A program made the translations under genes and the position numbers. From Flavonifractor sp. An10 (GTDB taxonomy: Bacteria; Bacillota; Clostridia; Oscillospirales; Oscillospiraceae), in assembly GCF_002161215.1 (NCBI RefSeq), contig NZ_NFMB01000006.1:1-64000 (forward strand): DNA of 64,000 bases, written 5' to 3'. Under the pieces are notes generated by a model. That model did no database searches and was not told the DNA's origin. It saw only the letters and a list, made by a program, of their open reading frames with translations. Shown here one piece after another: positions 1,743 through 54,740 of the stretch; position 1 is the first letter of the stretch; each line of letters begins with the position of its first letter.

Positions 1743-2973
1743 ATGACCGAGATCATCGGCGTCCGCTTCAAGAGCGGAGGCAAGCAATACTATTTCGACC
1801 CCCAGGGCCAGACGGTGGAGCCGGGCCAGGGGGTGATTATCGAGACCTCCCGGGGCCTGGAGTACGGCGAGTGCGCCCAGGGCAACACCATGGTGGAGGA
1901 CGAGGCGGTGGTGCCCCCCCTGCGCCCCCTGATCCGCCTGGCCACCGACAGGGATCTGGAGACGGTGGAGAAGAACCGGGAGAAGGAGAAGCGGGCCTTC
2001 GCCATCTGCCAGGAGAAGATCGCCGCCCACGGGCTGGAGATGAAGCTGGTGGAGGTGGAGTACAGCTTTGAGGGCAACAAGATCCTCTTCTTCTTCACCG
2101 CCGAGGGCCGGGTGGACTTCCGGGCCCTGGTGAAGGATCTGGCCGGGGTGTTCCATGCCCGCATCGAGCTGCGGCAGATCGGCGTGCGGGACGAGGCCAA
2201 GATGCTGGGAGGCCTGGGCATCTGCGGCAAGCCCTTCTGCTGCGCCACCTTCCTGGACGAGTTCCAGCCCGTGTCCATCAAGATGGCCAAGACCCAGAAC
2301 CTGTCCCTCAACCCCACCAAGATCTCGGGCACCTGCGGGCGGCTCATGTGCTGCCTGAAGTACGAGCAGGAGGCCTATGAGGACGCGGTGAAGCGGATGC
2401 CCAAGAACGAGTCCTTTGTGGAGACCCCCGAGGGGGTGGGCACCGTCACCCAGGTGAACCTGCTGAAGGAGACGGTGAAGGTGCGCCTGGAGGAGCAGCC
2501 GGAGAGCCCCAAGTGCTTCCACAACTGCGAGATCTGCGTGGTGCGCAACGGCAAGGGCAAGATCCCCGAGGGGTACGTGCCCCCGCCGCCGGAGGAGCTG
2601 GCCAAGCTGCGCAAGGTCACCCCGGTGGAGGAGCCCCGCCATCTGGCGGGCAGCCTGGACGCGGCCCTGAGCCACCTGGGCGTGGACGCCCAGCCCCAGC
2701 CGGAGGAGAAGCCGGAGGGGAGCTCTCGCCGCTCCCGCCGCCGGGGCCGCGGCGGCTCCAGGCCGCCGCCCAGTCCGGCGGGGGCAGGCCGCCCCCAGCG
2801 GAGGACAAGCCCGCCCAGCAGCCCCAGGCAGCGCCCCAGGCAGGCGGAGGCCCCAGGCCGGAGGGCGAGGCCAGAGCGCCGGGGAGAAGTCCGGGGAGAA
2901 GAAGCGCCCCCACCGCCGCCGCTGGCGGGGCCGCCCCCGGGGCGGGGACAAGGGCCCCAAGCCGGAAAACTGA
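1743..2973 (+). CDS. ricT: RicT/YaaT (PSP1 domain) with two apparent frameshifts in the C-terminal tail
   Basis: PSP1-domain protein. In Bacillus, RicT with RicA and RicF forms an Fe-S complex that stimulates RNase Y-dependent RNA maturation. Residues 1-330 are intact and carry the family cysteines: GICGKPFCC (about 159-167), SGTCGRLMCC (about 195-204) and the later KCFHNCEIC. After about 2745 the first frame turns into an Arg/Pro-rich read-through that would overlap the next gene. A sensible tail continues in two other frames, first a segment with AEDKPAQQPQ, then one with EKSGEKKRPHRRR, ending at TGA 2971-2973 just before a terminator. Two single-base losses, near 2745-2770 and 2878-2886, restore a 410-residue protein. 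I therefore place the end at 2973. Either sequencing error in G/C runs or real tail variation. Confidence 0.85.
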
Positions 2974-2981
2974 CGAAAAAA

Positions 2982-3010
2982 CGGGCGGCCCCGGCGGCCG
3001 CCCGTTTTTT
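2982..3010 (+). terminator. Rho-independent terminator after ricT
   Basis: CGGGCGGCC at 2982-2990 pairs with GGCCGCCCG at 2996-3004, followed by six T. It ends the darA-holB-ricT unit 9 bases after the proposed ricT stop, which supports that stop. Confidence 0.9.
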
Positions 3011-3027
3011 GGAAAGGATGCGTCTCC

Positions 3028-3597
3028 ATGACGGAATACGAGAAAATGCTGGCCGGGGTGTGGTATTACCCCGGTGAGGAGGAGCTGGCCGCCCTCCGCC
3101 GCCGGGCGGCGGAGGTGTGCTTCGCCGCCAACCGCCTGCCGCCGGGGCGGGAGGAGGAGCGGATGGAGCTGCTGCGCCCCCTCTTCGGCAAAACCGGGGC
3201 GGAGTTTACCATCACCCCGGTTTTCCACTGCGACTACGGCGGCAACATCACCCTGGGGGAGGGCTTTTACGCCAACTACAACCTGGTGATCCTGGACTGC
3301 GCGCCGGTAACCTTCGGGGACAACGTGCTGGTGGGCCCCGGCTGCGGGTTCTACACCGCCATCCACCCCCTGGACGCCGCCCACCGGGCCACCGGGGAGG
3401 AGAAGGCCGCCCCCATCACCGTGGGCAGCGACGTGTGGTTCGGCGGGAACGTCACCGTTCTGCCCGGGGTCACCATCGGCGACGGGGCGGTGATCGGCGC
3501 GGGCAGCGTGGTCACCCGCGACATCCCGCCGGGCGTGGTGGCGGCGGGCAACCCCTGCCGGGTGCTCCGCCCCGTGGATCAGGAGCAGGCCCCTTGA
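3028..3597 (+). CDS. Sugar O-acetyltransferase, maltose/galactoside type (left-handed beta-helix)
   Basis: 189 residues. Acetyl-CoA-dependent O-acetyltransferase of the Maa/LacA group. The N-terminal Mac region (MTEYEKMLAGVWYYPG) is followed by hexapeptide repeats; the catalytic His is in YTAIHPLDA, and GGNVTVLPGVTIGDGAVIGAGS is interrupted by no gaps. It starts 18 bases after the ricT terminator with ribosome site GGAAAGG. The natural sugar substrate of this family is usually unclear; a detoxifying role is often proposed. Its stop codon overlaps the -35 box of the promoter of the next transcript. Confidence 0.85.
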   Translation: MTEYEKMLAGVWYYPGEEELAALRRRAAEVCFAANRLPPGREEERMELLRPLFGKTGAEFTITPVFHCDYGGNITLGEGFYANYNLVILDCAPVTFGDNVLVGPGCGFYTAIHPLDAAHRATGEEKAAPITVGSDVWFGGNVTVLPGVTIGDGAVIGAGSVVTRDIPPGVVAAGNPCRVLRPVDQEQAP

Positions 3598-17297: not shown

Positions 17298-17597
17298 CAG
17301 ATACTATTATAAAAAAGAAACTCTTTTTGGCTGGGGATATTGTGGGGCGCGGCATCCCTGACGCGCCGCCCGTCTTCCCCAGTGCGCACACCGGGGTGGA
17401 TGAGGGGTTCCCGGATGCCCGCCCAGCCACCGCTATCCGTGGGGCGCGACGACTCGGCGCGCCGTCCGTAGGGGCGGCCTGTGGTCGCCCGTCTGGCGGG
17501 GCCCCCGCGCGGGGCGGGCCTGCCTGACCTGTCCACAAGATCTGGTATTCCCCGGGGAAGGCCGGCCCAAACGGGAAAAAAGATTGCAAAAAGGGAG

Positions 17598-23544: not shown

Positions 23545-23781
23545 AAAAAAACGCCCCGAGCCGTAAGGCTCAGGGCGAAGCAAGCTCCGTGGTGCCACCT
23601 GAATTCGGGGTTATGGATGAAAACCCCGCGCTCAAATCCCATAACGGCGGGAACCGGCGGGGCATTGCCTCCCCGCGGCTCGCGGGCGCCTTCCGCCAGA
23701 CCCTCGGAAGCCTTTCACCGTCCGGCTTCTCTCTCAGGGCCAGGTCTGCGCGTACTCCTCCCGGTCACTGCCTGTCGCTGG
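23545..23781 (-). ncRNA. T-box riboswitch leader of glyQS
   Basis: On the minus strand the T-box sequence AGGTGGCACCACGG (23600-23587) is followed by a terminator hairpin, CGCCCTGAGCC with GGCTCGGGGCG, and seven T (23551-23545). Upstream is stem I: GAGTACG (AGTA motif), CAGACC pairing with GGTCTG, and a GAAGCC/GGCTTC apical stem whose loop includes GGTG. Uncharged tRNA would stabilise the antiterminator and allow glyQS transcription. The specifier is probably GGC, but I cannot fix it. The UGGN base is C rather than the A expected for tRNA-Gly. Confidence 0.88.
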
Positions 23782-32352: not shown

Positions 32353-32399
32353 GCGCGGATATGGTTCAGGAACGGCGATCAGGTCTTACACATTAAATC

Positions 32400-32793
32400 G
32401 GAACAGGACAATGTCGCCGTCCAGCCCCACGGAACTGCGTTCCGCGGGGGCCCCAGATTTCAACTCAGCCAGGGCGGAGTGAATCCGCCCTGGCCCAAGA
32501 TTTTGGCCGGGGCCAAAACGCTTGTACGCGCAGAGCGCGTCCCGCCTTCGGCGGGTTCCACATGAAGGACGGCGATTGGGGCTTACACGTTGAACCGGAA
32601 CAGGACAATGTCGCCGTCCAGCCCCACTCAACTGCGTTCCGCGGGGGCCCCAGATTTCAACTCAGCCAGGGCGGAGTGAATCCGCCCTGGCCCAAGATTT
32701 TGGCCGGGGCCAAAACGCTTGTACGCGCAGAGCGCGTCCCGCCTTCGGCGGGTTCCACATGAAGGACGGCGATTGGGGCTTACACGTTGAACC
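32400..32793. repeat. Two 197-base tandem repeats carrying copies of the ychF 3' end
   Basis: GGAACAGGACAATGTCGCCG occurs at 32400 and 32597, exactly 197 bases apart, and the matching ychF sequence begins at 32794, again 197 bases on. Each unit holds on the minus strand the codons for GDIVLFRFNV and a stop, followed by about 160 bases with GGGCGGA/TCCGCCC, TTGGCC/GGCCAA and GCGCG stems. The two units are nearly identical; the outermost stop region has drifted but still encodes LFRFNV. No other gene in 32245-32779. Confidence 0.9.
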
Positions 32794-33889
32794 GGAACAG
32801 CACGATGTCGCCGTCCTTCATGACATACTCCTTGCCCTCGGAGCGGACTAACCCCTTCTCCTTGGCGGCGGCCATGGAGCCGCAGGCCATGAGGTCGTCG
32901 AAGCTGACCACCTCGGCCCGAATGAAGCCCCGCTCAAAGTCGGTGTGGATCTTGCCGGCGGCCTGGGGGGCCTTGGTGCCGTTGGTGATCGTCCAGGCGC
33001 GGCACTCGTCCTCGCCGGAGGTGAGGAAGGAGATCAGGCCCAGCAGGGCGTAGCTGGCCTTGATGAGCCGATCCAGGCCGGACTCGGCGATGCCCAGGTC
33101 GTCCAGGAACATCTTCTTCTCCTCCGGCTCCAGCTCGGCGATCTCCGCCTCCAGCTTGGCGCACACGGGGATCACCTGGGCCCCCTCCCGGGCGGCCAGA
33201 TCGGCCACCTGCTGATAGTAGGCGTTGTCGGCGTAGGCGGCGAAGCCGTCCTCGTCCAGGTTGGCGGCGTAGATGATGGGCTTGAGGCTCAAGAGCTCCG
33301 AGGTGGCGATGAGGGCGGCGTCGTCCTCGTCGCACTGGAAGGAGCGGGCGGAGTTGCCGTCGTTGAGCCAGTCCTTCAGGGCGGAGAACACCTCCACCTC
33401 GTGGAGGAACTTCTTGTCCCCCTTGGCGGCCTTCTGGGCCTTGTCGATGCGGCGCTCCACCATCTCCACGTCGGCCATGATCAGCTCGATGTCGATGACC
33501 CCGATGTCCCCCACCGGATCCACCGGCACGTTGGTGCTGGTGTCGGCCACCACGTGCATGATGTTCTCGTCGTCAAAGCAGCGCACCACGTGGACAATGG
33601 CGGCGCACTCCCGGATGTTGGCCAGGAACTTGTTGCCCAGGCCCTGGCCCTGGCTGGCCCCCTTCACCAGGCCGGCGATGTCCACGAACTCCACCACCGC
33701 CGGGGTGGTCTTCTTGGGGTGGTACATCTCGCTGAGGGCGTCCAGGCGGTGGTCGGGCACCGCCACCACCCCCACGTTGGGGTCAATGGTGCAGAAGGGG
33801 TAGTTGGCGCTCTCCGCGCCGGCGTTGGTAATGGCGTTGAACAGGGTGCTCTTGCCCACGTTGGGCAGGCCCACGATGCCTAATTTCAT
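32780..33889 (-). CDS. ychF: Redox-regulated ATPase YchF (Obg-like GTPase family)
   Basis: 369 residues. G1 GLPNVGKSTLFN (6-17), a DPNVGVV switch, FVDIAGLVKGASQGQGLGNK and the C-terminal TGS domain (KIHTDFERGFIRAEVVSFDD). YchF binds ATP, associates with ribosomes and affects stress responses. Its last codons are copied twice downstream in the 197-base tandem repeats. Confidence 0.95.
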   Translation of the reverse strand: MKLGIVGLPNVGKSTLFNAITNAGAESANYPFCTIDPNVGVVAVPDHRLDALSEMYHPKKTTPAVVEFVDIAGLVKGASQGQGLGNKFLANIRECAAIVHVVRCFDDENIMHVVADTSTNVPVDPVGDIGVIDIELIMADVEMVERRIDKAQKAAKGDKKFLHEVEVFSALKDWLNDGNSARSFQCDEDDAALIATSELLSLKPIIYAANLDEDGFAAYADNAYYQQVADLAAREGAQVIPVCAKLEAEIAELEPEEKKMFLDDLGIAESGLDRLIKASYALLGLISFLTSGEDECRAWTITNGTKAPQAAGKIHTDFERGFIRAEVVSFDDLMACGSMAAAKEKGLVRSEGKEYVMKDGDIVLFRFNV

Positions 33890-36506: not shown

Positions 36507-36572
36507 GGGCCGCCCCCGGCACGCAGCCGCCGCAAGCGCCATGGTATTTCAGGGGCGTGGCACCGATGGCAT

Positions 36573-36690
36573 CGTCGGCCCAAGCTGCGGATCGTTCGCT
36601 TCCGCGTAACCGCGAAAGCTCATTCCCTTCGCTGGGCCTCCTCTCCCCACGACGACCACTTCGTTGGGTCGCCGCGGGGGCCCCATTGGG
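36573..36690 (-). repeat. E1 structured repeat, copy a (inserted within module C)
   Basis: GGGGCCCC edge at 36677-36684, GGGGAGAGG, hairpin B with arms TTTCGCG/CGCGGAA, and long-range pair GGCCCA with TGGGCC. Confidence 0.85.
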
Positions 36691-36945
36691 CGCACCTGGT
36701 ACAGCGTAGCGGCTGTCAGGGCCTGCCGGGTGTCCGGCGCGGGCCGCCCGAGGCGCGGCAGCGCCTGTTACGAAAGCAAAAAAGGAACCGGGCGTGGATG
36801 CACGCCCGGTTCTTGCCCTGTCTGTACACCTTTCCGCCGCCGTGAACCCCCGTACTGGGGGGCGCCGGGGGGACTTTCCCCCGGCCCCTTCTTTCCCACC
36901 GCTTTCTTTGGAAAGAAAGCGGTGCCGCCGGAGGCCGGGCCTCCA

Positions 36946-37231
36946 TCGTCGGCACAAGTTACGGATCGCTCGCTTCGCCGCAAGCGGCAAAGCTCGTTCC
37001 CTCCACTGTGCCCTTGCTCCCGTCGCGGCATTGCGATTCCCGGGCCAGACTGGCCCGCCAATCGCGCCGCTCCTTTTCCCCGGCTTGCTTTATCCGCCAT
37101 TGGCGGCGCTTCGCCGGGGAACTCTCCCCACCGAACCCGCTGCGCAGCCGTTGGCGGCTTTGCCGCCTTACGGATGCGGCGTGCCCCTTGCGGGTACTTC
37201 GCTGGGCTTCGGCGGGGGCCCCATCTATGGC
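36946..37231 (-). repeat. E1 structured repeat, copy b (interrupted)
   Basis: Hairpin B arms GCCGC/GCGGC, long-range GGCACA with TGTGCC. About 90 unrelated bases (37020-37110) separate it from the extended hairpin A that ends at GGGGCCCC near 37220. Confidence 0.75.
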
Positions 37232-43040: not shown

Positions 43041-43125
43041 GGCGCCTTATGATGGGGAGTGAAGGCCCGCCGACGGTCTGCCAACTGCCAAGCCTGTAGG
43101 GGCGGATAGTATCCGCCCGCCCAAT

Positions 43126-43240
43126 GGGGCCCCCGCCGAAGCCCAGCGAAGCGGGTTCGGTGGGGAGAGGAGGCCCAGCGGAGGGAATGAGCTTTCGCGT
43201 TTACGCGGAAGCGAACGATCCGCAGCTTGGGCCGACGATG
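43126..43240 (+). repeat. E1 structured repeat, copy c
   Basis: GGGGCCCC edge, short hairpin A, GGGGAGAGGA, hairpin B arms TTTCGCG/CGCGGAA, closing pair GGCCCA/TGGGCC, end CGACGA. Confidence 0.88.
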
Positions 43241-44551: not shown

Positions 44552-46141
44552 ATGAAGCTCTATTATCGCGGACACAACTATAAATACGCGGCGGAACAGA
44601 TGCTGCTGACCCTTTTCCCCACCGAGCGGCCGGAGTACGCCGACGCACCCCCCGGGCCGGGGGAGGACGCCCTGGTGCTCTCTTTGAGCCGGGGGAAGAC
44701 CTGGGCCACCGCCACGGCGGCGCTGACCTGGGGCGGGGCGGAATACCGGGCCGCCCGCCGGTGCCGGGTGTCGGAGCTCACCGACCAGCTGTCCGCCGAC
44801 CGGGCTCTCCAGCGGATTCTCAAGCTGGCCTTCTACGACGCGGGCACGGCGGCGCTGGGAAAGGAGCCCCCCTGGGGGGCCCTCACCGGCGTGCGGCCGG
44901 TGAAGATCCCCGCCAAGGCCATGCTGGCCGGGGCCACCCCCGCCCAGGCGGAAAAAGTCCTGCGGGACACCTACCGGGTGAGCCCCGGCCGGAGAAAGCT
45001 GGCCATGGACTGCGCCCAGGCCAGCCTGGCCGCCCAGCGGAGCCTGGGGGAGCATGAGGTGTCCCTCTACGTGGGCATCCCCTTCTGCCCCACCCGGTGC
45101 GCCTACTGCTCCTTTGTCTCCGCCGACGTGGGCCGGGCGCTGAAGCTGATCGACCCCTTCCTGGACGCCCTGTCCGAGGAGATCCGGGCCACCGGGGCCA
45201 TGCTGGAGGGGGCGGGGCTGCAGGTGCGCACCGTCTACTTCGGCGGCGGCACCCCCACCACCCTCACCGCCCCCCAGCTGGATCGGCTGATGGGGGAGCT
45301 GGCGGAGCACATCGACCTGTCCGCCTGCACCGAGTACACGGTGGAGGCGGGCCGGCCAGACACCATCACGGCGGAGAAGCTGGCGGTGCTGAGGCGCCGG
45401 GGCTGTGACCGGGTGTCGGTGAACCCCCAGTCCATGTCCGACGCGGTGCTGGCCGCCATGGGGAGGGCCCACCGGGCCGCCGACATCCTGCGGGCCTTCG
45501 CCCTGGTGCGGGAGAGCGGCATCGGGTGCGTCAACATGGATCTCATCGCCGGCCTGCCCGGCGACAGCGCGGACGGCTTCCGCGCCTCCCTGGATCAGGT
45601 GCTGGAATTGGCCCCGGAGAACGTGACGGTGCACACCCTGGCCCTGAAAAAGGGCTCCCGCTTAATGAACGGGGCCCCCAACAAGGGCAAGGCCCTTGTT
45701 GGGGAGAGGACGAGCGGCGGCATGAGTGAGCTTCCCTGGAAACAGGGAAGCGAAGGATATAAAGCCCGCGAGGACGAGGGGGATACCCCTCTGCCCGCCG
45801 GGGAGGACGTGGCCGCCATGCTGGACTACGCCTGGGCCGCCCTGCGGGAGAGCGGCCAGATCCCCTACTATCTCTACCGGCAGAAGTACATGTCCGGTTC
45901 CTTTGAGAACGTGGGCTGGTGCCTGCCCGGCACCGAGAGCCTGTACAACATCTGCATGATGGAGGAGCTGCACACCATCGTCTCCCTGGGGGGCGGCGGG
46001 GTCACCAAGCTGGTGGATCGGCACACCGGGTACATCCAGCGGGTGGCCAACGCCAAGTATCCCCAGGAGTACATTCAGAAGATCGACGCCATCTGCGCCG
46101 ACAAGGCCAGGGTGGCGGAGTTCTGCCGCCAACACGGGTAA
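44552..46141 (+). CDS. hemZ: Coproporphyrinogen dehydrogenase-like radical SAM protein HemZ, with an in-frame repeat insertion
   Basis: 529 residues from ATG 44552. The radical SAM cluster CPTRCAYCSF is at about 178-187, followed by TVYFGGGTPTTLTAPQL and the HemW/HemN-like C-terminal region (YYLYRQKYMSGSFENVGW). Family members are coproporphyrinogen III oxidases or related enzymes. Residues about 374-410 (nucleotides 45671-45779) do not belong to the family; they are a copy of the dispersed E1 repeat read in frame, between KKGSRLMN and PLPAGEDVA. The insertion lies at a loop position and keeps the frame, so the protein may work. Located before a uridine kinase gene with a short gap. Confidence 0.88.
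   Translation: MKLYYRGHNYKYAAEQMLLTLFPTERPEYADAPPGPGEDALVLSLSRGKTWATATAALTWGGAEYRAARRCRVSELTDQLSADRALQRILKLAFYDAGTAALGKEPPWGALTGVRPVKIPAKAMLAGATPAQAEKVLRDTYRVSPGRRKLAMDCAQASLAAQRSLGEHEVSLYVGIPFCPTRCAYCSFVSADVGRALKLIDPFLDALSEEIRATGAMLEGAGLQVRTVYFGGGTPTTLTAPQLDRLMGELAEHIDLSACTEYTVEAGRPDTITAEKLAVLRRRGCDRVSVNPQSMSDAVLAAMGRAHRAADILRAFALVRESGIGCVNMDLIAGLPGDSADGFRASLDQVLELAPENVTVHTLALKKGSRLMNGAPNKGKALVGERTSGGMSELPWKQGSEGYKAREDEGDTPLPAGEDVAAMLDYAWAALRESGQIPYYLYRQKYMSGSFENVGWCLPGTESLYNICMMEELHTIVSLGGGGVTKLVDRHTGYIQRVANAKYPQEYIQKIDAICADKARVAEFCRQHG
45671..45779 (+). repeat. E1 structured repeat, copy e, inside hemZ coding sequence
   Basis: GGGGCCCC edge, perfect hairpin A (CCCCAACAAGGG with CCCTTGTTGGGG), GGGGAGAGGA, hairpin B arms TTCCCTG/CAGGGAA, AAGCGAAGGAT and end GAGGACGA. 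The sequence has drifted from the intergenic copies, but the layout and pairing are kept. Confidence 0.78.
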
Positions 46142-49512: not shown

Positions 49513-49574
49513 CCCGAGCCAAGTAGCGGAAATCACCCCGCCCTGTAGGGGCGGATATCATCCGCCCGTCTAAT

Positions 49575-49688
49575 GGGGCCCCGCGGCGACCCAACGGAGT
49601 GGTCGTCGTGGGGAGAGGAGGCACAGTGGAGGGAACGAGCTTTGCCGCTTGCGGCGAAGCGAGCGATCCGTAACTTGTGCCGACGATG
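49575..49688 (+). repeat. E1 structured repeat, copy f
   Basis: Hairpin A arms GCGACC/GGTCGT; hairpin B arms TTTGCCGC/GCGGCGAA; closing pair GGCACA/TGTGCC, the alternative to GGCCCA/TGGGCC. Confidence 0.88.
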
Positions 49689-49819
49689 TAGGGGCGGATA
49701 TCATCCGCCCGCTTGCCCCCGCAACCGCTGGCCCGTGGGGCGCGACGACTCGGCGCGCCGTCCGTAGGGGCGACCTGTGGCCGCCCGTCTGCCGGGGTGC
49801 CCCCGGGGACGCGCCCAAT

Positions 49820-49933
49820 GGGGCCCCCGCGGCGACCCAACGGAGTGGTCGTCGTGGGGAGAGGAGGCCCAGCGGAGGGAATGAGCTTTCGGGCCTGCCC
49901 GGAAGCGAACGATCCGCAGCTTGGGCCGACGAC
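49820..49933 (+). repeat. E1 structured repeat, copy g
   Basis: Hairpin A as in copy f; hairpin B arms CGGG/CCCG as in copy d; closing pair GGCCCA/TGGGCC. Confidence 0.88.
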
Positions 49934-50130
49934 GGCGCCCCCATTTTTTCCCGAAGAAATGGGGAGAAAGAAGGGCCGGGGGGCTTTCCGCCTTTTCAAA
50001 AAGGATGCTTCGCATAGATTTACATCGAAGGCGCCCCCGGCGCCTTCGACCCCGGCCCCCCAAACGGGGGCCCAGGGCGGCGGTGGGCTGTACGCACAGG
50101 GCAGAGACCGGGCGTGCATTGCCGCCCGCA

Positions 50131-50243
50131 TCGTCGGCACAAGTTGCGGATCGCTCGCTTCGCCGCAAGCGGCAAAGCTCGTTCCCTCCACTGTGCCTCC
50201 TCTCCCCACCGAACCCGCTTCGCTGGGCTTCGGCGGGGGCCCC
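50131..50243 (-). repeat. E1 structured repeat, copy h
   Basis: Hairpin B arms GCCGC/GCGGC with GGCACA/TGTGCC; hairpin A of the short CCGAAGCCC type as in copy c. It mixes the halves of copies c and f. Confidence 0.85.
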
Positions 50244-54183: not shown

Positions 54184-54354
54184 GTCGTCGGCCCAAGCTA
54201 CGGATCGTTCGCTTCCGGGCAGGCCCGAAAGCTCATTCCCTCCGCTGGGCCTCCTCTCCCCACCGAACCCGCTGCGCAGCCGTTGGCGGCTTTGCCGCCT
54301 TACGGATGCGGCGTGCCCCTTGCGGGTACTTCGCTGGGCTTCGGCGGGGGCCCC
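54184..54354 (-). repeat. E1 structured repeat, copy i (long hairpin A)
   Basis: Near-identical inverse of copy d, including the 57-base hairpin A extension and CGGG/CCCG hairpin B. Confidence 0.88.
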
Positions 54355-54627
54355 AGTTACCGCAAGCGCCAGCCAATGGGGCGGGCGGCGATGCCGGCCC
54401 GGTTCTTTCCAGCCAATCACAGCCCACCGCCGCCATGGGCCCCGGGTCCAGGGTCGAAGGCGCCGGGGGCGCCTTCGATGAAAATCCACGCGAAGCCACC
54501 TCAAAAAACGCAGGCCCTGGTGGTTTTCCCACCGCTTTTGACACCAAAAGCGGTGCGCCCGCCGCGCAGGCGCCCCCGGGGGCACCCCCGGCAGGTGGAT
54601 GGCGCGCCGAGGTCGTCGCGCCCCACG

Positions 54628-54740
54628 TCGTCGGCACAAGTTACGGATCGCTCACTTCGCCGCAAGCGGCAAAGCTCGTTCCCTCCACTGTGCCTCCTCT
54701 CCCCACGACGACCACTCCGTTGGGTCGCCGCGGGGGCCCC
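54628..54740 (-). repeat. E1 structured repeat, copy j
   Basis: Inverse of the copy f type: hairpin B GCCGC/GCGGC, closing pair GGCACA/TGTGCC, hairpin A GCGACC/GGTCGT, next to P1. Confidence 0.88.

Follow-up and report, generated by a model that had tools for sequence, protein, structure and literature searches.

The window, by which we mean the whole 64,000-nucleotide stretch of Flavonifractor sp. An10 DNA that was analysed, contains a hemZ gene with a copy of a dispersed repeat, E1, in frame within it:

44552-46141, forward strand: hemZ, coproporphyrinogen dehydrogenase HemZ, 529 aa (TIGR03994; Radical_SAM, PF04055; open frame)
45671-45779, forward strand: E1 copy in frame in hemZ, HemZ residues about 374-409 (alignment, BLASTN, profile, orthologues)
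45676-45704, forward strand: hairpin A of the hemZ copy, 13-bp perfect stem
45701-45710, forward strand: conserved GGGGAGAGGA stretch of the hemZ copy
45730-45751, forward strand: hairpin B of the hemZ copy, 9-bp stem, GAAA loop

The NCBIfam model TIGR03994 matches HemZ at 498 bits in two stretches, the best of which ends at residue 375; the CxxxCxxC motif and the family blocks are present, and the 529 codons run without a stop. The first-pass annotation had placed a complete E1 element here, and each of the parts it named is found at 45671-45779: the left edge GGGGCCCC, hairpins A and B, the GGGGAGAGGA stretch and GCGAAGGAT (ending at 45758); the right edge of the copy is GAGGACGAGG. Its further claim, that the element keeps the reading frame open and that HemZ family sequence restarts after it, was borne out on both points; the host frame is open across the copy, and stops occur in both other sense frames.

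The GGGGAGAGGA stretch has 11 exact occurrences in the window, nine of which, including the one in hemZ, lie exactly 67 nt from the end of GACGA; the other two (24329 and 11783) are not E1. The pattern from this anchor to GCGAAGGAT has one match in the window and none in 100 shuffled sequences. A profile of 51 copies, from which the hemZ, methyltransferase and rpoD copies had been left out, matches the right part of the segment (45696-45777) at E 1.1e-8 in a search of the window; its alignment had previously been fitted to a covariance model, R1, which does include the hemZ copy and scores it at 105.8 bits. BLASTN of the segment against the An10 genome returns other copies at E 1.3e-7 and 6.6e-5, and the fold of the hemZ copy has a z-score of -5.4. 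A chance hairpin in hemZ is ruled out by the pattern search against shuffles, the fold z-score and the leave-out profile. By BLASTN and a nine-copy alignment, the nearest copies are those at the rpoD 3' end and in the methyltransferase gene, which together with the hemZ copy form a diverged subgroup; by BLASTN, the nearest relatives are not the main intergenic E1 type of the window. The other E1 copies in the window are as follows:

36571-36684, reverse strand: E1 copy outside recognised genes
36945-37058, reverse strand: diverged E1 copy, 72 bits
43126-43239, forward strand: E1 copy outside recognised genes, 132.7 bits
43525-43695, forward strand: E1 copy with a 57-nt extension in hairpin A
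49574-49687, forward strand: E1 copy flanked by two 24-nt copies of another window repeat
49820-49933, forward strand: E1 copy outside recognised genes
50130-50243, reverse strand: E1 copy outside recognised genes
54184-54354, reverse strand: E1 copy with a 57-nt extension in hairpin A
54627-54740, reverse strand: E1 copy outside recognised genes

The 57-nt extension is common to the two copies that carry it. Further dispersed repeats, of types GTAGGGGCGGATATCATCCGCCC and GTGGGGCGCGACGACTCGGCGCGCC, alternate with E1 copies (49542-49808, 43093-43133, 17433-17512 and others).

E1 extends well beyond the window. The R1 model finds at least 53 copies in the An10 genome, a lower bound since only 150 of 990 candidates were scored, and it has matches in all 20 genomes of the genus that we examined (at least 2 to 26 in each of the 19 others). 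At E<=1e-6, E1 is present in at least 76 of 120 genomes sampled from the family, An10 included, and in at least 68 of 106 genera; at the level of the order it is present in at least 12 of 79 sampled genomes, four of these 12 belonging to the same family as An10. All genome-wide counts are lower bounds for the same reason, namely that candidates were only partly scored. Sequence resembling E1 is present, too, in plasmid records of Subdoligranulum variabile and Pusillibacter faecalis and in a single faecal phage contig. The copies taken from relatives are the best matches listed rather than a random sample, and the set of 155 copies used below had the two weakest of 54 matches and the weakest of 104 left out beforehand.

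Most copies are 107-121 nt long, with two modules and 33 consensus base pairs. Among 102 distinct copies from relatives, 97% of the alignment cells pair, and 30 of the 33 pairs have changed on both sides; the covariation score is 0.633, against 0.06-0.11 when the partners are slid by one to three columns. The alignment was fitted to the model, so the score is inflated, but the contrast remains large. E1 is thereby shown, as far as aligned copies allow, to be a covarying two-hairpin element with a conserved predicted fold, and the family is best explained as a small mobile element of Oscillospiraceae that is non-autonomous and that folds, as a single strand, into two hairpin modules. No E1 copy in the window matches Rfam at the gathering score, and at E<=5 over nine loci the only hit overlapping an element is RF01740 at locus L058 (E 0.49; 21.2 bits against the required 45), so that there is no convincing match to a known RNA family. 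At one locus of genome G019 (L123, contig C139, 901-1354) four E1 copies form a head-to-tail array that repeats every 113 nt, and at two others (L111 and L122) the right edge of the element (AGGACG...) lies directly 5' of an ATG start and may act as a ribosome-binding site.

We compared the hemZ segment with HemZ loci from other genomes, 80 in all, of which 75 could be read across the segment and five did not parse. Orthologues had been expected in the first-pass annotation to lack the insert, and 73 of the 75 readable loci do lack it: the segment is 48 residues long in 59 loci, 52 in 12, 49 in one and 50 in one, compared with 84 residues in An10. The two exceptions are both metagenome-assembled genomes. 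G008, a Flavonifractor, is the sole other full carrier (L208, 85 residues), and G019 (L207, 54 residues) has a scar. At the protein level this scar consists of ACGGGGCC plus CGCGGGGACGAGG, the element's two ends only; its DNA reads ATGGACGGGGCC CGCGGGGACGAGG, with both ends present and the middle missing, where F. plautii has ATGGAGGAG. We read the scar, from its sequence, as a probable in-frame internal deletion between short GCC repeats. Because 73 loci lack the segment, one is filled and one retains a scar of the ends, the segment is an insertion and not native sequence. The contrary reading, a native variable loop of HemZ that resembles E1 by convergence, can appeal to the variation of this loop by a few residues (48-52) among Oscillospiraceae, but we give it almost no credence: the orthologue comparison rejects it through the loci without the segment and the scar of both element ends, the profile built without coding copies still matches at the E value given above, and the constant 67-nt right part is common to other copies in the window. 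The annotation had also held that its reading would fall if the same insert stood in distant HemZ proteins of genomes with no E1 elsewhere, and this was not found: G008 belongs to the same genus and has 17 E1 matches, and the scar carrier G019 has 26. The segment at 45671-45779 is thus confirmed as an E1 copy inserted in frame in hemZ.

The An10 and G008 inserts are more alike than their surroundings. They are identical at 104 of 108 positions, whereas neighbouring 100-nt windows are 83-84% identical and the two HemZ proteins 79% identical; dS is 0.35 outside the insert, and none of the roughly 24 synonymous sites inside it differs. Plain descent does not explain such near-identity. Two independent insertions at a preferred target loop would account for both the identity and the absence of synonymous change, yet we consider this unlikely, if still a live option: a TTA codon just upstream of the insert (CGC TTA ATG) is common to An10 and G008 and absent from G019 and F. 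plautii, which favours one insertion spread by short-tract recombination, and the G019 scar suggests that the element was already present in the ancestor of An10 and G019. The simplest reading would be a short tract exchanged between lineages, although this does not fit easily with the same scar, which would imply that the element predates the An10/G019 split. The four differences between the two inserts are all nonsynonymous and all in hairpin B, where two form a compensatory pair, one gives a wobble and one breaks a pair; because all four are nonsynonymous, we see no sign of selection on the peptide sequence of the insert.

An AlphaFold2 model of HemZ, made with 35 aligned HemZ sequences, has a mean pLDDT of 86.4, and residues 368-410 fall below 50, between a strand (357-362) and a helix (417-433). 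This agrees with the suggestion in the first-pass annotation that structure prediction might reveal a surface loop: the insert is predicted to be a disordered loop on a well-folded enzyme. Outside the insert, dN/dS of hemZ is 0.43 between An10 and G008, 0.43 between An10 and G019 and 0.31 between An10 and F. plautii, and by these ratios purifying selection seems to act on the remainder of the gene; since 0.43 exceeds 0.31, some relaxation of HemZ is possible. The same excess is what one would cite for a hemZ that has been inactivated and is drifting, its open frame being accidental. This we find improbable, given that the 529 codons remain free of stops with the CxxxCxxC motif and family blocks kept, that the genome has no second HemZ (the other match, on contig C11, is only 36% identical), and that a second species has the same open insert. 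On the strength of the structural model and the dN/dS values of 0.31-0.43, the gene instead looks functional with an added flexible loop.

It is also conceivable that E1 is removed at the level of RNA or translation, by splicing or ribosome hopping, and that HemZ is made without the insert. Translational bypassing or hopping has precedents in the mitochondrial byps and in T4 gene 60. The strong fold of the copy and its covariation are in keeping with removal, as is the restriction of the An10-G008 changes to hairpin B, one compensatory pair included. Removal would, however, make frame and stops irrelevant, yet five copies within open reading frames, at three loci, are in phase and free of stops in the host frame, the hemZ copy has stops in the two frames that are not used, and no Rfam intron family was matched. 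This evidence is weakened by the fact that coding copies were partly chosen by their open frame; even so, we regard removal as very improbable. We are rather confident, in the absence of expression or peptide data, that the in-frame E1 copy is translated as a tolerated disordered loop; its translation, its retention in the protein and its tolerance by HemZ are inferred. The course of events would be that an E1 copy entered hemZ in a Flavonifractor lineage, in a variable loop between a core strand and the helix VAAMLDYAWAAL, with a net gain of 36-37 codons, a multiple of three and stop-free in that frame; hemZ would have stayed open for these two reasons, leaving a HemZ with an extra, repeat-encoded and tolerated disordered loop.

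The hemZ copies are not the only ones in frame. Among the 155 copies examined, five lie within open reading frames at three loci, namely hemZ, a phosphatase gene and a methyltransferase gene. A low-molecular-weight protein tyrosine phosphatase (PF01451) has an in-frame E1 copy in both G008 and G019, reading LMEYAGR...CFDEVADPWYTG where relatives have HLLMEYTERPGDVADPWYTG and the like; the LMW-PTP match is continuous in G008 and in one gene copy of G019, and elsewhere is broken, between residues 117/118 and 156/157. The phosphatase is a multi-copy family, with two further G019 copies lacking the insert, and its site could be parsed in nine of 30 loci, two filled and seven empty. The third host gene, in An10 itself, encodes a phage-type cytosine methyltransferase; the insert is absent from the faecal phage record MT838034, which aligns across the site at 62% identity. 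The N-terminal part of this methyltransferase seems by eye to be in another frame, and the gene may be damaged. The right end of the element is read in the same frame in hemZ and the phosphatase (...DE) and in a different one in the methyltransferase. In-frame copies were found partly by searching open frames, which biases the set towards them. A crude gene caller put 151 of the 155 copies outside its genes; of the four inside, the two hemZ copies were kept. Candidates rejected as in-gene copies were L115 and L118, called by the crude gene caller, whose upstream flank has no coding signal, and L121, which is a boundary between two genes: a weak codon-usage scan finds coding signal on both flanks and a stop inside, and by eye the copy comes after the end of one mobilisation gene and before the next one starts. 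The excess of open frames in E1 over shuffles is modest, the copies are related, and we conclude nothing from it.

At gene 3' ends, many copies have an unusual target signature. Of the 152 copies that could be tested, 42 are followed, directly from their right edge, by DNA that duplicates a sequence no more than 400 nt upstream, in many cases the 3' end of the gene before the element; of 3469 random positions in these loci, 19 gave a positive result. Another window repeat is involved in one of the 42 and tandem E1 units in two, and a left-anchored match without a right-anchored one was seen in two copies (L052 and L078). Genes with a duplicated tail include pgk, tpiA, rpoD, fusA and smc, and those duplications that are complete, extending to both edges of the element, are 52, 58, 105 and 110 nt long. 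An inverted copy of the target junction, 10-22 nt long, is present in 20 of 40 such copies (p<=0.01 each, 300 shuffles) and ends within 11 nt to the left of the element, overlapping it by 2 nt in one case. These are not 20 independent events, because they fall on eight gene targets. Of the remaining 20, three have p 0.013-0.03 and 17 are chance-like; most of the 20 are spaced by more than 100 nt. At pgk, the junction GGAGCTG|CCCGGC is mirrored before the element as GCCGGGCAGCTCC. The pgk 3' end (L344-L360) is usable in 17 of 20 genomes: the element and a second tail copy are found in G019, G008, G012, G003, G006 and G016 and, in diverged form, in G000; only the inverted motif is left in G014, the G011 contig stops too early, and eight genomes lack the element, G009 and G015 among them retaining the second tail copy. 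The five copies within open reading frames, the two in hemZ included, have neither a duplicated tail nor an inverted junction in a test that four positive controls pass and that is blind to a target duplication of a few nucleotides. Elsewhere, at seven of the eight loci tried (L066, L090, L099, L156, L161, L166 and L174), E1 lies head-on to a tRNA gene on the opposite strand, with its right edge directly against the 3' end of that gene; the flank of the eighth, L079, resembles a tmRNA start by eye, where ARAGORN found nothing. At L073, on contig C9 of An10 (2537-3097), an intact tpiA is followed by E1 plus a 105-nt tpiA 3'-end copy as a unit repeated three times in tandem, and upstream there is a further E1 accompanied by a copy of the pgk tail.

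The order at the 3'-end copies is thus the left half of the target (A), a new copy of the gene's tail (B), the A|B junction in inverted form, E1 and the original B, and we know of no transposition scheme that explains it. A scheme drawn from these end products would have a nick at A|B prime strand-displacement synthesis of B; the new end would fold back and copy the A|B junction, and the copying end would then jump to an E1 template and be joined to the displaced B. An insertion near the 3' end of a gene would in this way leave the gene intact, and the orientation bias could be explained by selection, because only 3'-end insertion in that orientation keeps the gene whole. Rare copies without such marks would land inside genes and, if in frame, become protein loops as in hemZ; they may have come by another route or have lost the extra segments by in-frame deletion. 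That E1 represents a hitherto undescribed kind of small mobile element, inserting by a chemistry of its own through nick, fold-back and template jump, is a tentative proposal, which we think possible but rather doubtful. Mobility by an enzyme acting in trans is inferred, and that enzyme is unidentified. E1 lies near two of the 23 RAYT loci searched (23 of 29 matches, six of IS200 type having been left out), both at the smc 3' end, and near none of 26 Y1_Tnp (IS200-type Y1 transposase) loci; across 20 genomes, E1 number and RAYT number correlate with rho 0.41 and p 0.07, in a hand tally that counted some partial matches. With these proportions and a correlation that is not significant, neither RAYT nor the IS200-type Y1 transposase is accepted as the mover. 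At the smc 3' end in two genomes (L146, G012:C4; L160, G014:C232), E1 and the copied smc tail are followed directly by a RAYT-like gene, which matches NF047646 below the curated cut-off.

Repeats inserted in frame into coding sequence have been described in Rickettsia and in other bacteria, as far as the available portions of the cited papers go (PMC10969869, PMC3733652, PMC2759123). Rickettsia palindromic elements (RPE) are described in two of these sources, each available in part, as palindromic repeats of about 150 bp, in frame in unrelated protein genes and also found elsewhere (PMC10969869, PMC3733652). E1 is like them in standing in frame in unrelated genes (hemZ, LMW-PTP, methyltransferase) and being absent from relatives; it differs in having two tandem hairpin modules with GGGGAGAGGA anchors and a GACGA right edge, in occurring in Clostridia, and in having only five in-frame copies, at three loci, among those examined. 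The comparison with Rickettsia elements made in the first-pass annotation holds as a resemblance, to which two further unrelated proteins with in-frame copies can be added; E1 may work as those elements do, through tolerated coding insertion, but this is by analogy of kind, no RPE sequence having been compared. REP sequences are stem-loops of 20-40 bp, and those tagged with CGTC or GTAG are foldback repeats, many downstream of genes and some inside; in several species REP-type repeats lie within genes, and RPE sequences with CGTC at their end are mentioned, all in the part of one source that was available (PMC3733652). Of the distinct E1 copies, 139 of 151 have GACG (CGTC on the other strand) in their last 8 nt, as in CGTC-tagged REPs, but E1 is not a single stem-loop of 20-40 bp with an 8-9 bp stem: most copies measure 107-121 nt, a second hairpin is present and the right module is branched, and the association of E1 with tyrosine transposases is weak. 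Bacterial MITEs (ERIC/RU, QMITE1, BOX, RUP) occasionally form in-frame gene fusions, according to partial text of two papers (PMC10969869, PMC2759123); E1 is likewise small, non-autonomous and dispersed, but its alignments have no terminal inverted repeats visible by eye, and the complete target copies at its 3'-end sites are 52-110 nt, not a short fixed duplication. We could not file E1 in any known family, and the literature searches made, which covered open-access papers only, gave no description of the repeat.

This repeat family of gut Clostridia has empty, filled and scarred alleles at a single codon of hemZ, so that one can test directly whether a core enzyme tolerates a loop encoded by a repeat; small-repeat coding insertion is best known from Rickettsia. 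The wider E1 family (at least 68 of 106 sampled genera), with its covarying fold and odd target signature, raises the question of what moves it. The window contains two further features outside E1: a T-box leader on the reverse strand (23568-23777; RF00230, 100 bits) and a tandem 197-nt repeat (32372-32816) in which two complete copies, 96% alike, are joined by a partial third.
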